Origin: Dactylosporangium sp. AC04546 | GTDB lineage: Bacteria; Actinomycetota; Actinomycetes; Mycobacteriales; Micromonosporaceae | Reading direction: 5' to 3' | Length of the DNA stretch: 64,000 nucleotides | Assembly: GCF_022095675.1 (NCBI RefSeq) | Contig: NZ_JAHYSG010000051.1 | Coordinates: 1-64,000, forward strand | Part shown: one piece after another, positions 20,187 to 27,975 of the stretch | Layout of the letters: the number at the start of each line of letters is the position of its first letter | Numbering within the stretch: position 1 is the first letter of the stretch | The notes under the pieces: generated by a model | The model's input: the letters and a program-made list of their open reading frames with translations, nothing else | Told to the model about the DNA's origin: nothing | Database searches by the model: none | Program-made: the position numbers and the translations under genes

Positions 20187-21407
20187 TCAGGACTTGAGGT
20201 GCGACGTGAGGAAGTTGACGATCGGGTCCATCACCTTCTGGGTTGTCCACAACATGCCGCTCTGCGGGTCGCCGACGAACGCGAGGTCACCGTGGCCGGC
20301 GCCCTTGACGACGTACCGTGTGGTGTCCACGCCATTGGCACGCAACGCGTTGTGCACAAGCAGCGTCTGACTGGGTGAGACCAGCCGGTCGTCGTCGCCG
20401 TGCAACAGCAGGAACGCAGGGTCGGTCGGGTCGACGTAGGTCACCGGATTCGCGCGCTTCACCGCAGCCGGATCGGCGGTTACCGACTTGGTAGTGCCCT
20501 GGCCGAAGACCCACCTGGCGGCGTTGTTGCCCGGTCTGACATTGGCCTGCTGCGCCGCCGCGTCGAAGTCGGCGCCGATCTTCGCCAGGTCGGACGGGCC
20601 GAACTTGTCGACGACGGCCTGCACGTCACCGCTGAGGTCCAGGTTGTCGCCGGCCTCGAAGTCCTTGACGCCGTTGGTGGTGCCGACCATCGCGGCCAGA
20701 TAGCCGCCGGCGGACTCGCCATACACGGCGATGTGCTCCGGGTCGATGCCGTACTCTGCGGCGTGCGCGCGGAGATACCGTACCGCCGACCGCACGTCCT
20801 TCACTGCGTCGAGGTACGTGGCGCCGTTGGTGGTGGTCCGGTATTGGATGCTCGCTACCACGAAGCCGGCCTCCGCGACGTACGTGCGCTGGTCAAGCGC
20901 GGCCTCCTTGCTCGCATTGGCGAAGCCGCCGCCTGGCAGGTAGACGACGGCCGGCTGCGCACCCTCGGCGGCCGGCACCAACACGTCCATCTTCAGATCG
21001 ACCTTGGTCCCCGCGGTGGTGGGCGACGCGTACGTGATGTCGGCATGGCGATCCACCTTCGCCTTTCCGCAGGCGATCTGCGGGCCGTCCGCCGTGAGCA
21101 CCGTGCTGGTGCTGGTGTCGCCCGGCGCCACCGAGGCGGCGACGGCGATGTCGGCGCCACTCGGCCTGGCCGCACCGCCCGCCGCGGCAGACCGGCCCGG
21201 TTCAGCAGCACCGGCCGGAGCCGAATCGCCCGGCAGGGCCGCACCGCCGGACGCGGAGCCGCCACCGGCCCGGACCGGGATGCCGGCATCGGCCGGGCAT
21301 GCCGTGGTTGCGGCGCTCGCCGTCGCCGCCGGTTCGGCGCCGTTCGAGCATGCCGCCGGGCCGAGGCCCGCAGTCAGCACGGCCAACACCGCGATGGTTT
21401 TCCTCAT
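20187..21407 (-). CDS. exported alpha/beta hydrolase (carboxylesterase type)
   Basis: A 406-residue secreted esterase. The N-terminal signal peptide ends near Cys20 (LGPAACSNG), an imperfect lipobox. A low-complexity Ala/Gly/Pro linker runs to about residue 110. The catalytic domain has the HGGG-like oxyanion motif as YLPGGGF, the nucleophile in YGESAGGYLAAM, a GDDDRLVSPS acidic loop and the His in KGAGHGDLA. It resembles BD-FAE/acetylxylan-esterase-like enzymes. An inverted repeat lies 10 bases upstream of the start, and the transposase-TetR fusion is divergent, so the latter may regulate it. Confidence 0.82.
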   Translation of the reverse strand: MRKTIAVLAVLTAGLGPAACSNGAEPAATASAATTACPADAGIPVRAGGGSASGGAALPGDSAPAGAAEPGRSAAAGGAARPSGADIAVAASVAPGDTSTSTVLTADGPQIACGKAKVDRHADITYASPTTAGTKVDLKMDVLVPAAEGAQPAVVYLPGGGFANASKEAALDQRTYVAEAGFVVASIQYRTTTNGATYLDAVKDVRSAVRYLRAHAAEYGIDPEHIAVYGESAGGYLAAMVGTTNGVKDFEAGDNLDLSGDVQAVVDKFGPSDLAKIGADFDAAAQQANVRPGNNAARWVFGQGTTKSVTADPAAVKRANPVTYVDPTDPAFLLLHGDDDRLVSPSQTLLVHNALRANGVDTTRYVVKGAGHGDLAFVGDPQSGMLWTTQKVMDPIVNFLTSHLKS

Positions 21408-21416
21408 AGCGCTCCC

Positions 21417-21437
21417 TATGGAATCGGTTACTCCATA
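21417..21437. promoter_or_regulatory. candidate TetR-type operator before the esterase
   Basis: TATGGA-N9-TCCATA is a perfect 6-bp inverted repeat 10 bases upstream of the esterase start, in the divergent region facing the TetR-fusion gene. Size and symmetry suit a TetR-family dimer. The link to the fusion protein is inferred from position. Confidence 0.5.
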
Positions 21438-21510
21438 ACGTCGGCCGAGCGCCTCGGAGGCGGCTTGGATCCTAAGATCTGCTCCGGTGTGGAAAACACC
21501 GCACAGGAAG

Positions 21511-21543
21511 AAGCGCGGTTAAAGACGTGCCAAAACCGCGCTT
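21511..21543. repeat. 10-bp inverted repeat before the fusion gene
   Basis: AAGCGCGGTT and AACCGCGCTT are perfect complements separated by 13 bases, ending 12 bases before the GTG of the fusion gene. It could be a second operator, a leader hairpin or the relic of an insertion-sequence end. No matching copy was noticed downstream of the gene. Confidence 0.55.
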
Positions 21544-21554
21544 ATGATCGTCCT

Positions 21555-23102
21555 GTGGGAACATTCGACGGCCGGTTTGCCCGCGCAGAAGCCCGCCAGC
21601 ATGCCGAGGCCTACCTCGCGGCCTTGATGGGATCGAGCGACCTCTCGCCCGACGGCACGCACCGACTGCTCAATACAGCCCGCTGGGACGTCGACGGCGT
21701 GCGCGACGACCTGCGCTCGTTGGTGCTTGCCCACCTCGGTCACCCATCCGGCGTGCTGATGGCCGGCGAGGCCGCATTTGTCCGCAAGGGCGACCGCTCG
21801 GCCGGCGTGCATCGCCGGTTCCTGCCAAGCACCGGGCAGCTGGAGAACTGCCAGGTCGGGGTGTTCCTGGCGTACCGGGGACGGAAGGGGGCGGCGCTGA
21901 TCGACCGTGAGCTGTTCCTACCGCCCGAGTGGTCGGCCGACACGGCTAGGCGCGGTTCGGCCGGGATCCCCGACGGCGTACCTTCGACGCCGACCGATGC
22001 GCTGGTCACCGCGATGATCCGCCGAGCGGTCGAGGCGGGTGTACCAGCCAGTTGGGTCACCTGCGCGGAGCCGCACCCCCTGGATCCGCAGCTGTGCGCC
22101 CTGCTTGAGCGGCATCGGGTTGGATACGTTCTACCGGTGCCCGCGGACTCCGTCGGCGCTGCGCTGCTCACCGACGCGCCCTCGGGATCGCCGGACGGCT
22201 GGACCGTGACGCGCTTGCCGCCCCCGGGCGGCGGCGCGCAGCGCTGGATCCTGGTTCACGGGACGTCGTCCTACGTCTGCGGCGGGCCTGCCCACACGTC
22301 GGTCGCGACGCTGGTCCGCGTGGCGGCGGCTGCGGGTACCGTGGCCGAATGTGTGGCCGAAGGACTCGGCCCCTACCAGGTGCGCCGCTACCAAGCCTGG
22401 TACCGGCACATGACGCTGGCCATGCTGGCGTATGCGCACCGGGTCTGCGCCGCCGTACCACCGACCCCGCACGCCCGGCGCACCCGCCGCGATCCGGCCG
22501 AGAAACGCCGCCGCATCCTGGCCGCAGCCCGCGAGGTCCTGCGCGAGCGGGGACTGCGGGCCACGATGGATGACGTCGCCACCCGAGCCGGGGTCGGCAT
22601 CGGCACGGTGTATCGCGCTTTCCCCGACAAGGACGCCCTCATCGAGGCAGTGTTCGGCGACATCGTCGACGGCGCCGAGAAACTGGCGCGCGACGCCGCC
22701 GCCGAGTCCGACGCCTGGACGGCGCTGACCACATCGCTGGAGCAGGTCTGCGAGGCGCAAGCCTTCGACCGCGGACTGCGAGAGGTCATGCTCGGCCACA
22801 ACCGCGGCCCGCGCCACCAAGCCGAAGTCGGCCGCCGGATCAAACCGCTCGTCGACGAGCTGATCACCCGCGCACAGCAGCAGGGCGACCTGCGCCAAGA
22901 CATCATCGGCTTCGACCTGCCGATGATTCAGCTGATGGTCGCCGCCGTCACTGACCACACCGGCCGGCCCGACCTGTGGCGCCGCTACCTCCACCTCCTG
23001 CTGGACGGCATGCGCGCCAGGCCCGGCGCAGCCCGGCCGCTGCCCGCCCCGCCGGGCGGCGTACGCCCGGCGTTCGCTGGCCGGAGCTTCCCCTTCTCAT
23101 GA
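21555..23102 (+). CDS. inactivated IS701-like transposase fused to a TetR regulator
   Basis: One open frame of 515 residues joins two families. Residues 1-300 follow an IS701-like DDE transposase: DGTHRLLNTARWDVDGVRDD, QLENCQVGVFLAYRGRKGAA, LIDRELFLPPEW and YQVRRYQAWYRHMTLAMLA. By motif alignment the catalytic positions are replaced: the usual VVDETGF reads LMAGEAAF (Gly71), WVTGDEVYG reads WVTCAEPHP (Ala171), and VEECF reads VAECV (Ala264). Residues about 310-510 are a complete TetR protein (EKRRRILAAAREVLRERGLR, GVGIGTVYRAFPDKDALIEA). No start codon or ribosome site separates the parts. The long intact frame with lost catalysis suggests domestication. GTG 21555 is chosen; GTG 21489 is possible. 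Confidence 0.82.
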   Translation: MGTFDGRFARAEARQHAEAYLAALMGSSDLSPDGTHRLLNTARWDVDGVRDDLRSLVLAHLGHPSGVLMAGEAAFVRKGDRSAGVHRRFLPSTGQLENCQVGVFLAYRGRKGAALIDRELFLPPEWSADTARRGSAGIPDGVPSTPTDALVTAMIRRAVEAGVPASWVTCAEPHPLDPQLCALLERHRVGYVLPVPADSVGAALLTDAPSGSPDGWTVTRLPPPGGGAQRWILVHGTSSYVCGGPAHTSVATLVRVAAAAGTVAECVAEGLGPYQVRRYQAWYRHMTLAMLAYAHRVCAAVPPTPHARRTRRDPAEKRRRILAAAREVLRERGLRATMDDVATRAGVGIGTVYRAFPDKDALIEAVFGDIVDGAEKLARDAAAESDAWTALTTSLEQVCEAQAFDRGLREVMLGHNRGPRHQAEVGRRIKPLVDELITRAQQQGDLRQDIIGFDLPMIQLMVAAVTDHTGRPDLWRRYLHLLLDGMRARPGAARPLPAPPGGVRPAFAGRSFPFS

Positions 23103-23300: not shown

Positions 23301-24257
23301 TCACGAAGCTGGGGCGACAGGAGGTGCCACTTGTGCGCCCGTCCTCGACCACGTGAACGGCGACTCCGCGACCGCCTTGTGCACCGCCTTCACGACGACA
23401 GACACCTCGGGCACGTTCTCGTCGCCCGCACGGACAGCCAGGATGCTGTACCGGCGTGTGTGCATGCCCTCGATCGGCAACCTGGTGATCCTTCCTGCCG
23501 ACGCGGCCGGCGTGAGCTCGGGCGCCAGGGTGATGCCCCAGCCGGCGCCAACCAGCCCGAGCGCGGTCGCGACGTCGTGCACTGAGGCGTTCACGTGCGG
23601 ACGGAATCCCGCCTCCGCACAGAGCCCGATCGACAACGGACCGAGGGAGTTGTTCTGGCACATGACCCACCCCTCGGTCTCGAGTTCGTTCGGGGAACAC
23701 CGGTCCCGGCCGGCAAGCCGGTGGCCGGCCGGCGTGCACAACAGCAACGGGTCGGTGCCGAGGACCCACTCCCGGAGCCCGGGAACTGGCGGCGGGGTCG
23801 TGCGGGCGAACCGAGACACGATCGCCACATCCAACCGGCCCTGACGCAGGTCGTCGGCGCACTCGGTTTCGGTGACCGCCGCCAAGGTCAGCTCCAATCG
23901 CGGGTACCGGTGGCGGACCTGCGTGAGGGCGGTACTCATGATCGCCGGTCCCTCCCGGAAGGCGATCCCGATCGTGAGCGAACCGGCGACTTCGCCGGTT
24001 GCCTGCCGCAGCACCGCCTCCGCCGCGCGGAGTTCCACGAGGATTCGTTCGGTGTGATCGAGCAACCTACGTCCGAGCGGTGTCACCGTGACCGTCTTGC
24101 CGCCCCTGATGAGCAGCGTCGCGCCCGCCGAGCGCTCAAGTGCGGACATCTGCTGCGAGATCGCGGAACGGGTGTAGCCCAGTTCGCGCGCCGCCGCGGC
24201 GATGGAGCCGTGCGCGGCGATCGCGCGCAGCACGATCAGCTTCTTTGTATCCAGCAT
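23301..24257 (-). CDS. LysR-family transcriptional regulator
   Basis: A 318-residue LysR regulator: N-terminal HTH with LIVLRAIAAHGSIAAAAREL then GYTRSAISQQMSALE, a linker helix, and a type 2 periplasmic-binding-like effector domain (GSLTIGIAFREG, LRQGRLDVAIVSRF). It is divergent from the catabolic/transport cluster starting at 24343 and separated by 85 bases containing two GTTAAC palindromes. It most likely activates that cluster in response to its substrate. Confidence 0.9.
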   Translation of the reverse strand: MLDTKKLIVLRAIAAHGSIAAAARELGYTRSAISQQMSALERSAGATLLIRGGKTVTVTPLGRRLLDHTERILVELRAAEAVLRQATGEVAGSLTIGIAFREGPAIMSTALTQVRHRYPRLELTLAAVTETECADDLRQGRLDVAIVSRFARTTPPPVPGLREWVLGTDPLLLCTPAGHRLAGRDRCSPNELETEGWVMCQNNSLGPLSIGLCAEAGFRPHVNASVHDVATALGLVGAGWGITLAPELTPAASAGRITRLPIEGMHTRRYSILAVRAGDENVPEVSVVVKAVHKAVAESPFTWSRTGAQVAPPVAPAS

Positions 24258-24342: not shown

Positions 24343-25452
24343 ATGGCGACATCGCTCCGCGAAATCCAGCGGATTCCGACCTCGGGCGCCCGAGCCGTGA
24401 ACTCCTTCACGGTCGGCGGCGTAGACCTCCTGGCGATCCCCCAACTGGCCTACGACGTGCCGGGCGGAGCCATCGGCATGAATGCCGGGGACAGCGCGAC
24501 CACCCTCATGCTGCTGCGCCGCCGCGGCGATGAGTACGTCCCGTACGCGGAGCTACCGGGGCCTGGCGGCGAGGATGCTGAGATCTTCCGCATCGCAGAC
24601 CGAACCTTCCTCGCGGTCGCCTGCATCCGGACCGGCTCTGGACCGTACCGGTTCGACACCGAGTCCCTCATCTACGAGTGGTCGGAGGGAGGGTTTCGGC
24701 TGTTCCAGAAGATCTCGACCGTGGCGGCGAAGCAGTTCAAGTACTGGCAGGCCGGCGACCGCCACTTCCTCGGCCTCGCCCAAGGCCTCGAACTCCCCGA
24801 CATTGGTGTCGACAACCGCGACTCGATGATCTTCGAGTGGGATGGGACGTCGTTCGTCGAGTTCCAGCGCATCCCGTCGCGCTGGGCGTACAACTGGCAC
24901 CCGTTCGAGGCCGGCGGCGACTTCTTCGTGGCCCACGCGGACCACGCCGGGCCCAGCACCCTGTACCGATGGACCTCGCACAGGTACGTGCCGCACCAGG
25001 AGCTCCTGCCCGAGGGCGGGCGCGCCTTCGCCGACTTCGTACGGGACGGCGTCCACTACCTCGTGGCCGTCAGCATCGCCAATCAGCCCGTCGTGATGGC
25101 CTTTGGCGGTGGACGTTTCGCTCCTGTCGGCACGTTGACCGGTCCGGGGGCGCGCGAGGTCAAGGTAGTCGAGGTTGACGGACAGGGTTACCTGATCCGG
25201 ATCAACTTCATCACGGGAACGCCGATCGTCCCCCGGCCGTCCCTCATGTCACAGATCTACACGATCGGCCGCGGCGGGAGGTTCGAGGTCGTTGCTGAGT
25301 TCCCCACCAGCGGAGGCACGGACGCCGACGTCATCGCGATCGAAGGCGGCAGCGTCCGGTTCGCCGTGTCGAACGGGTTGTCGGGCGACGTGCGGTTCGC
25401 GACTGAGTCTGTGATCTACGAGTTCCGACCCAATGCCCGGGAGACGATGTGA
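24343..25452 (+). CDS. EAR/EPTP-repeat beta-propeller protein
   Basis: A 369-residue protein made of about seven repeats of 45-55 residues, each with a hydrophobic-Gly-x-x-Phe/Leu strand and a closing I/LYEW or LYRW motif: LIYEWSEGGFRLFQKI, MIFEWDGTSFVEFQRI, TLYRWTSHRYVPHQEL. This is the EAR (epitempin/EPTP) repeat pattern of a beta-propeller. No signal peptide is visible, so the protein is probably intracellular, unlike most EAR proteins. It opens the LysR-divergent cluster and overlaps the next gene as GTGA. It may bind the imported ligand; the function is unknown. Confidence 0.75.
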   Translation: MATSLREIQRIPTSGARAVNSFTVGGVDLLAIPQLAYDVPGGAIGMNAGDSATTLMLLRRRGDEYVPYAELPGPGGEDAEIFRIADRTFLAVACIRTGSGPYRFDTESLIYEWSEGGFRLFQKISTVAAKQFKYWQAGDRHFLGLAQGLELPDIGVDNRDSMIFEWDGTSFVEFQRIPSRWAYNWHPFEAGGDFFVAHADHAGPSTLYRWTSHRYVPHQELLPEGGRAFADFVRDGVHYLVAVSIANQPVVMAFGGGRFAPVGTLTGPGAREVKVVEVDGQGYLIRINFITGTPIVPRPSLMSQIYTIGRGGRFEVVAEFPTSGGTDADVIAIEGGSVRFAVSNGLSGDVRFATESVIYEFRPNARETM

Positions 25453-26666
25453 GGACCGACCCGGTGCCGAGCCCGGAGCTGATCGGGCTCTACGAGACCT
25501 ACACCGCCTCCGCCGAGAGCATCGGCGCCCGCTTGGCCTCTCTGGCTGAGGCTGCGAATGCCGAGCGTCCGCTCATCGTCGTGACCCACGGGGACATCGC
25601 ACTGTACGCCGGCGGCGGCGCCCCGCCCGTCATCGAAGGCTTCCGCCTCCAGACGCGCGGCTTCAAGGAACTCGCGGCGATCTCTCACCTCGGTCCCGCG
25701 GTCGCCACGGTGGCGCGGATGAAGGCGCTGGCGCCGGAAGGATCGTGGCGGTCAGAGGCCGCACGCCTGATCGAGGCTTCGCGTGCCGCGCGCGAGGCGA
25801 ACTCACGCGAGTTGTGGGCCGACCGGATCGCCTTGACGGCCTTCTCCGGGCGCGAGGACAGCATCGCCCGCATGGTCGACTACACATGCCGCCGGGCAGA
25901 GGAGTTCCTGCGGCAGGCGCTGCGGGACGAGAACTACCTGGATGCGGCCGTGGTACGTCGCGACTATCTGGCCGGCCCGGCTGAACTCCTGCCGGTCCCG
26001 GTCAACCGGGTCATGGTGGCGACGTTCTTCCTGTCGGGACTCGACCTGGCCCACCGGCTCATCCGGTGGTTCGACGCGCAAGACCTCGCGTGGGAGAGCG
26101 CGATGGTGCTCGTGGCCGGGCAGCAGGGCCGCCCAACGGCAGGCGTTACGGTGGAAAGCAACAGCGTCGCCAAGGTAATCCGCACGGTCTCTCGTGGACG
26201 CCTGCCTCGGCGCAACCTGCTGATCGCGCCGCACGCACCGGTCTTCCCGCTGTACAACGGAACGGACGTGAAGGAGGCGGCCGCACTCGAGCCCGTCTAC
26301 CGACGCCTCTGGTCCGCAGTCATGGCCACCGCCGATCTCGGCGAGGACATGTTTGCCGGCTACCCGCGGTTCGACCCGGACCTGGCCTCCGCGTTGCGGC
26401 CCGCCGACGGGCCATCGTCGGCCGTCGCGGAAATGCCTCCCATCGGGGCGCCAGACGACTGGCTCGCCCTCACCACCCGACTTCGAGTGGTGCTTGAAGA
26501 CCCCCGGCAGTTGCTTTCGGGCGCTGTGACGGACTACGCGAGCCAACAGCTCGTCGACAACAAGAACGACCCCCGCCGGGTCGTCGTCCCCGGCCTCGAC
26601 GGCGAGCCCTATCCCGAGCTCACCTCTGCGACCAGGACAGGGAACGTCGCCACGAGCGCCCCCTGA
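25449..26666 (+). CDS. conserved protein of unknown function (possibly DUF5624-like)
   Basis: A 405-residue soluble protein I cannot assign with confidence. Visible landmarks are RPLIVVTHGDIALYAGG, FRLQTRGFKELAAISHLG, VDYTCRRAEEFL, AGQQGRPTAGVTVESNS and LIAPHAPVFPLYNGTD. The layout recalls proteins annotated as DUF5624, but this is from memory. Translationally coupled (GTGA) to the EAR propeller and followed after 70 bases by the binding protein of an ABC importer, so the pair probably acts together on the transported compound. Confidence 0.65.
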   Translation: MRTDPVPSPELIGLYETYTASAESIGARLASLAEAANAERPLIVVTHGDIALYAGGGAPPVIEGFRLQTRGFKELAAISHLGPAVATVARMKALAPEGSWRSEAARLIEASRAAREANSRELWADRIALTAFSGREDSIARMVDYTCRRAEEFLRQALRDENYLDAAVVRRDYLAGPAELLPVPVNRVMVATFFLSGLDLAHRLIRWFDAQDLAWESAMVLVAGQQGRPTAGVTVESNSVAKVIRTVSRGRLPRRNLLIAPHAPVFPLYNGTDVKEAAALEPVYRRLWSAVMATADLGEDMFAGYPRFDPDLASALRPADGPSSAVAEMPPIGAPDDWLALTTRLRVVLEDPRQLLSGAVTDYASQQLVDNKNDPRRVVVPGLDGEPYPELTSATRTGNVATSAP

Positions 26667-26736
26667 CCATCTGCCCATCCGCGCTCAGGCGCCGCCCATG
26701 AACACACGCCGGCCGTGGACCACGAGGAGTCAAAAA

Positions 26737-27975
26737 ATGCTGCATAGTCACCACTTCACTCGCCTTCGCCGCGTTTCTGCGGTGGCCGCGGTGGCTTCCC
26801 TGATGGCACTCACCGCAGCCTGCGGAATCACGGGCGGCGACAACAAGAGCTCGAACTCCGATGATCCCATCGTCATCGGCATGTCGCTGCCGCTGACTGG
26901 TCCGGTTGCCGACCGCGCCAAGCCCGGCATGGAGGGATACCAGTACTGGGTCGACGAACTGAACGAGAAGGGTGGCCTGCTCGGCCGCAAGGTCGAGCTG
27001 AAGGTCCTGGACGACGGATTCGACCAGCAGACCGCAGTCTCCGACTACAACCGCCTCATCTCGCAGGACAAGGTGGACCTCCTGCTTGGCACGTTCTCCT
27101 CCGACCTCAACGTCGCCGTTGCCCCCATCGCAGAGCGCTTCGGGTACGTGTACGTCGAACCCTCAGGCGGTGCGGACGAGATCTTCGAGCGCGGCTTCAA
27201 GTACCTGTTCTTCGCACAGCCTGCCACGACCCAGAAGCTGCCGGACCGCTTCGTTGACCTGATCGAGTCGATGCCCGCGGCCGAGCGGCCCAAGACGCTC
27301 GCGCTGATCCAGATCGACGACCCCAACACCACACAGGCGGCAGGGCTGTTCAAGGAACAGCTCGGCGCACTCGGTGTGCGGACGGTCTACGACGAGACCT
27401 ACGCCCCCGACACGTCGAACTTCGACTCGATCGCAAGCTCGATCAAGCAAAGGAACCCGGACCTCGTGATCAACGGCGCGATCGCCGTGGACGGCATGTC
27501 CCTGATCCAGTCGATGCAGAAGGTCGGATTCTCACCCAAGATGCTCTACCAGATGAACGCGCCGACTGACCCGACGTACGTGAAAACAGTTGGTACGGCG
27601 AACACCGACGGAATCTTCACCTATCTCGGGTGGAGCCCCGAGGCGACGTACCCGACCAACGCCGGCTTCGTGTCCGGGTACACCAAGAAGTACGGCAACG
27701 CCCCCAGCGAGGACGCCGCCAACTCGTACACGGCCGGACAGGTGCTGGCGACCGCGGTCAAGGCTGTGGGCAGTCTCGACCAGGTCAAGATCCGCGACTG
27801 GCTCCATACGAACTCGGTCGACACGATTGTCGGCACCCTCAAGTGGGACGAGAGCGGACGCCCGCAGGGCGACATGCTCCTCGGTCAGTTCCAGAAGGGC
27901 AGCATCGAAATCGTCGCGCCGAAGGATGCGGCAACCACCGAGACGGTGATCAACCCGAAGCCCACCTGGCAGTAA
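26737..27975 (+). CDS. branched-chain-amino-acid-type ABC substrate-binding lipoprotein
   Basis: A 412-residue binding protein of the Leu/Ile/Val (Peripla_BP_6) family. The signal peptide ends at LTAACG, then PIVIGMSLPLTGPVADRAKP begins the mature fold and DLLLGTFSSDLNVAVAP forms part of the ligand pocket. The ATG at 26737 is chosen because GAGGAG lies about 8 bases upstream; a frame opening at 26698 would add 13 residues before the signal peptide. It feeds the LivH, LivM-LivG and LivF genes downstream. The aldolase and lactonase context suggests a carboxylic acid rather than an amino acid as ligand. Confidence 0.9.
   Translation: MLHSHHFTRLRRVSAVAAVASLMALTAACGITGGDNKSSNSDDPIVIGMSLPLTGPVADRAKPGMEGYQYWVDELNEKGGLLGRKVELKVLDDGFDQQTAVSDYNRLISQDKVDLLLGTFSSDLNVAVAPIAERFGYVYVEPSGGADEIFERGFKYLFFAQPATTQKLPDRFVDLIESMPAAERPKTLALIQIDDPNTTQAAGLFKEQLGALGVRTVYDETYAPDTSNFDSIASSIKQRNPDLVINGAIAVDGMSLIQSMQKVGFSPKMLYQMNAPTDPTYVKTVGTANTDGIFTYLGWSPEATYPTNAGFVSGYTKKYGNAPSEDAANSYTAGQVLATAVKAVGSLDQVKIRDWLHTNSVDTIVGTLKWDESGRPQGDMLLGQFQKGSIEIVAPKDAATTETVINPKPTWQ

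Follow-up and report, generated by a model that had tools for sequence, protein, structure and literature searches.

The window analysed here is a stretch of 64,000 nucleotides from Dactylosporangium sp. AC04546. On its forward strand, positions 21555-23102 form a single open frame of 515 codons and a stop, in which an IS701-type transposase-derived part (residues 1-300, 21555-22454) is followed by a TetR part (residues 301-515, 22455-23102). A first-pass annotation, made from the letters of the DNA, had described one frame reading through an IS701-like body into a complete TetR protein, and the domain models confirm both the frame and its two domains. The NCBIfam IS701 model NF033540 matches from residue 3 (211.8 bits versus a cut-off of 150), and Pfam places DDE_5 (PF13546) at residues 25-200, TetR_N at residues 321-366 (54.9 bits versus a gathering score of 24) and TetR_C_43, a ligand and dimer domain of the TetR type, at residues 389-488, the complete TetR spanning residues 321-488. 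In the predicted structure the TetR fold is confident and the transposase core is confident in part, with residues 22-43 and 265-285 below pLDDT 50; at a pTM of 0.56, the model does not fix the placement of the two domains relative to each other. Structure matches for the whole fusion were filled by TetR proteins, with 5ovy as the nearest solved structure, and the structure match of P0005, an intact IS701 relative, was Tn5.

Divergent from the fusion gene, on the reverse strand at 20187-21407, lies the gene of a BD-FAE-type esterase (PF20434), which is likely a secreted lipoprotein and the probable target gene of the TetR part. On the other side of the fusion a LysR gene is found at 23301-24257, and downstream of it, on the other strand, the genes of an EPTP-domain protein, a DUF5624 protein and a periplasmic-binding protein follow in a row (24343-27975). 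A 63% homologue of the LysR gene is present in a Streptomyces locus (L099:15184-16083), where about 7 kb separate it from the pair of TetR and esterase genes.

The first-pass annotation had proposed to look for a homologue with the same two-domain architecture, and we found one in P0003, a protein of 513 amino acids encoded on a 2268-base contig of a JGI metagenome from an environmental sample. P0003 is 71% identical to the window fusion over 98% and has the architecture, the dead active site and the main deletions in common with it, which indicates that fusion and inactivation are older than the split between the two proteins. Chance read-through was rejected for the same reason, and the existence of P0003 suggests that selection has kept the joined protein. 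It also bears on the start codon. The frame is open upstream as far as a GTG at 20400; despite this, we chose GTG 21555, because the N-terminus of P0003 is the residue equivalent to it.

The rarity of the fusion in the data at hand limits the case. Besides the window's own protein, P0003 was the one full fusion among the matches listed in the protein searches; the first search listed the best 120 of 1001 matches from 7996 scored candidates, the second the best 120 of 1584 matches, and the third all of its 36 matches, two of them with DDE_5. For genomes, searched in overlapping sets that counted 1146 in all and included sets of 354, 397 and 394, a full-length match appeared only in G000 among the matches listed, and none of 324 matching plasmid records covered 80% of the query. 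A widespread fusion family is thus not supported; the fusion is rare, known in these searches from one genome and one metagenome protein. Further candidates were rejected, since L043 and P0006 look like read-through of an upstream frame and L056 is a transposase match alone.

The loss of catalytic residues is evident from an alignment of 48 IS701 relatives with the window fusion and P0003. At residues 71, 171 and 264 (forward-strand codons 21765-21767, 22065-22067 and 22344-22346), the alignment columns hold Asp in 48 of 48, Asp in 48 of 48 and Glu in 47 of 48 relatives, where the window fusion reads Gly71, Ala171 and Ala264 and P0003 reads Gly, Ala and Val. These are the lost DDE positions that the annotation had named, and the alignment rules out that the catalytic residues are intact there. 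Judged by its DDE residues, the fusion is not an active IS701 enzyme. R-(3)-E-(6)-K has been described as the signature spacing of IS4-type transposases, and the Tyr of this signature as often absent in IS701 (PMC2266710). The catalytic Glu of the IS701 relatives follows a conserved Arg by four residues and precedes a conserved Lys by seven, which is the same spacing; in both fusions the Arg is changed to Ala and the Lys is deleted. Both also lack the RKNGWQLAE block, which is near-invariant among the IS701 relatives, and some of the sequence that separates the second Asp from the Glu. Overall, 124 columns reach at least 90% conservation. Both fusions retain 74 of these and both have lost 11 by deletion; the other 39 are altered in one fusion or in both, and at 18 near-invariant columns the two fusions carry the same replacement residue.

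These 18 shared replacements and 11 deletions would suit a transposase part that is a decaying, functionless leader, open only because the TetR part is translated through it. Its faster divergence points the same way: between window fusion and P0003, residues 1-300 match at 206 of 299 aligned positions, compared with 155 of 200 for residues 301-500. However, the changes within residues 1-300 avoid the columns that are conserved in IS701. In a column test that compares two proteins only, at the protein level, and is not a dN/dS analysis, identity was 92/114 (0.81) where IS701 conservation is at least 90% and 65/119 (0.55) where it is below 70%. When the window DNA was allowed to drift neutrally, this contrast was reached in 0 of 2000 simulations at each of three distances; at the distance matching the observed identity, 93 of 2000 simulations stayed free of stops. 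Translation of TetR could by itself keep the frame open, but it could not produce the column pattern, and the transposase-derived part therefore looks constrained in its own right and not merely open. We consider a functionless leader unlikely.

It may also be asked whether the frame serves two genes, with TetR made mainly from an internal start and the fusion protein minor or absent. The statement in the annotation that there is no start codon at the junction was too strong, as codons 286 and 290 are in-frame ATGs (22410 and 22422, within 22410-22424 on the forward strand) that precede the TetR homology by about 20 residues and are possible starts for TetR alone. Both are Met in P0003 as well, and stand-alone orthologues such as L043 begin at a similar distance upstream. 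Yet no Shine-Dalgarno-like stretch was seen by eye before either ATG, unlike in L038 and L043, and the frame is unbroken in both fusions. Moreover, both codons lie in a YRH-TLAM motif that the fusions share with transposases and that usually has Met or Ile/Leu there, so that neither Met needs a start function. Translation mainly from codon 286 or 290 appears quite improbable to us.

The TetR part can be compared with close stand-alone TetRs from eight named loci of Streptomyces, Kribbella and Sinosporangium, which are 58-63% identical to residues 301-515 and carry no in-frame transposase part. In all eight, the tetR gene is divergent from a BD-FAE esterase gene whose product is 49-60% identical to that of the window; no esterase is present in the 3.6 kb of L118, where a ninth TetR relative (60%) is found. 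The gap between esterase and TetR contains exactly two GGA-N9-TCC palindromes in 8/8 loci. The window has one, on the esterase side, at 21416-21438 (CTATGGAATCGGTTACTCCATAA), 8 bases from the esterase start codon, and a GGA-N9-TCC site with at least three of four outer pairs arose in 0.27% of resamples. Because only this esterase-side palindrome is kept, the transposase sequence appears to occupy the place of the second operator and of the tetR start. The right half of the site, TACTCCA, resembles an IS701 end by eye, and the site could be a remnant of such an end rather than an operator.

Two residues of the TetR part, D313 and F356, align with an Asp and a Phe of 5ovy, which we take to be Asp14 and Phe57 of MAB_4384. 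A change of either residue has been reported to impair DNA binding by MAB_4384 (PMC5895659). Given the conserved neighbour, the operator-like site and the conserved residues, the TetR part is very probably still a regulator.

At the start of the fusion gene, nested inverted repeats occupy 21502-21557, with perfect 10-base arms at 21511-21520 and 21534-21543 and 90% arms at 21502-21511 and 21548-21557. The repeats extend as far as the GTG start codon, overlapping the sequence TATGAT (21543-21548), by eye a -10-like box; a promoter and terminator scan found nothing. They could serve as an operator or, in the mRNA, fold into a hairpin at the start. The annotation had proposed a two-headed DNA-binding regulator, and the repeats offer such a protein a candidate site: the transposase part would bind terminal inverted repeat (TIR)-like half-sites at the fusion start and the TetR part the esterase operator. 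A perfect 10-base arm pair arose in only 5 of 3000 resamples, and by eye 8 of the 10 bases of the arms agree with the inner IS701 end. This likeness was noticed after the fact, however, and is not significant, with 36 of 500 resamples as good for the inner part; likewise, a TIR search of 21408-21554 against 97 distinct ends of relatives gave no significant match (199 of 500 resamples as good for the whole end). The deletion of the conserved RKNGWQLAE block further argues against plain binding of transposon ends by the transposase part, and we regard binding by both heads as most improbable. What stands of the earlier reading is a dead, apparently constrained transposase domain in frame with a TetR part that is very probably a regulator.

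We consider it probable that the protein is a TetR repressor of the esterase, and probably also of itself, that has gained a domesticated, catalytically dead transposase domain. The order of events that we infer would begin with a divergent module, the BD-FAE esterase reading one way and a stand-alone TetR repressor the other, with two operators between them. An IS701-type transposase gene would then have inserted between the operators and tetR, and loss of the right end of the element together with the tetR start would have left one frame. Its product would be a TetR repressor that carries an RNase H-like domain, catalytically dead, at its N-terminus. The TetR part would bind the surviving GGA-N9-TCC site at 21416-21438 and so repress the esterase, and probably the nearby promoter of the fusion gene itself. 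The transposase-derived part, domesticated, would move nothing and would most likely aid oligomerisation or add a contact to DNA or protein.

Other IS701-type proteins without an intact DDE set were surveyed alongside. In the tree, the fusions are grouped with five DDE-less stand-alone proteins with a support of 0.84. One DDE-less protein, that of L154, has an intact relative (L257) at 58-60%, which makes a DDE-less clade doubtful and recurrent inactivation probable; the idea of a dead-transposase family was downgraded for this reason. Close orthologues of the DDE-less proteins were not evident among the matches listed in family, order or genus searches. An HTH regulator is the immediate neighbour at 5 of 15 DDE-less loci and in 7 of 29 neighbour frames, of which 23 were scanned and the rest counted as no; the set of 15 leaves out truncated frames and the DNE element of L125, L147 and L148. 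The control covered 62 of 73 neighbours at 35 of 38 loci and contained at least three regulators; two of the 35 loci (L073 and L094) are truncated rather than intact, and seven families of one subset were left out. With the control entered as 3/61 and 3/36, Fisher tests gave 0.011 by neighbour and 0.039 by locus, both post hoc and uncorrected, and the neighbour genes were called with a home-made gene caller. The association is weak and is a lead only.

The regulators at these loci are SARP on both sides (L151), XRE-TPR (L153), LAL (L154 and L064) and XRE plus LAL (L067), beside the DDE-less proteins at L151:4986-6038, L153:4902-6074, L154:4974-6041, L064:7803-9002 and L067:7890-9125; one of these loci is near a polyketide synthase-like frame. 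The five proteins are suggestive of recurrent domestication, and on a very unlikely reading the fusion would be the fused end point of a broader trend in actinomycetes, in which catalytically dead IS701-type proteins come to lie beside pathway regulators (SARP, LAL, XRE). Elsewhere in the genome of the window, on contig C48, two IS701-like frames (L216:3935-5164 and L216:6840-8192) have D, D and E in place, with identities of 44% and 34% to P0005, the reference transposase.

Among known systems, MAB_4384 (5ovy) shares the TetR_C_43 type with the fusion, but its neighbour is an efflux pump instead of an esterase, and it is without an N-terminal add-on, where the fusion has a transposase-derived extension of 300 residues. 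IS701 transposases (NF033540; DDE_5) are about 40-45% identical to residues 1-300 and have the same order of core strands and helices, in line with the near-invariant columns kept in both fusions; unlike them, the fusion lacks the DDE residues, the signature Arg and Lys, an N-terminal block and the C-terminal tail, and has a TetR attached. In eukaryotes, transposase sequences have been captured in frame by regulators, giving rise to host-transposase fusion transcription factors. The window fusion resembles these in the in-frame capture, and together with P0003 it combines joining to a host regulator with common descent, as in a domesticated host-transposase fusion; it differs in being bacterial, of the IS701 DDE type and partnered with TetR, and any DNA binding by its transposase part is putative. 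A full bacterial counterpart, with the dead head on TIR-like half-sites at its own promoter and the TetR head on the esterase operator, would link two kinds of site through a single protein, which we hold to be very unlikely. TldR proteins are nuclease-dead regulators derived from TnpB. Like the window fusion, they represent bacterial regulators from an inactivated transposon enzyme, but they are RNA-guided and neither DDE-derived nor joined to TetR.

The annotation had known of no described family with this architecture. No transposase-TetR fusion or IS701-derived regulator was found among the literature matches listed, and the word DDE is absent from the main text of a review on the prokaryotic co-option of mobile elements (PMC8987985); the capture of transposases by regulators as such is familiar in eukaryotes. 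A DDE case in bacteria, with catalytic loss shared between two proteins, indications of constraint and an ancestral module that can still be read, would show that this capture route exists there too, and the esterase-TetR module, as a two-gene system, is small enough for this route to be tested simply.
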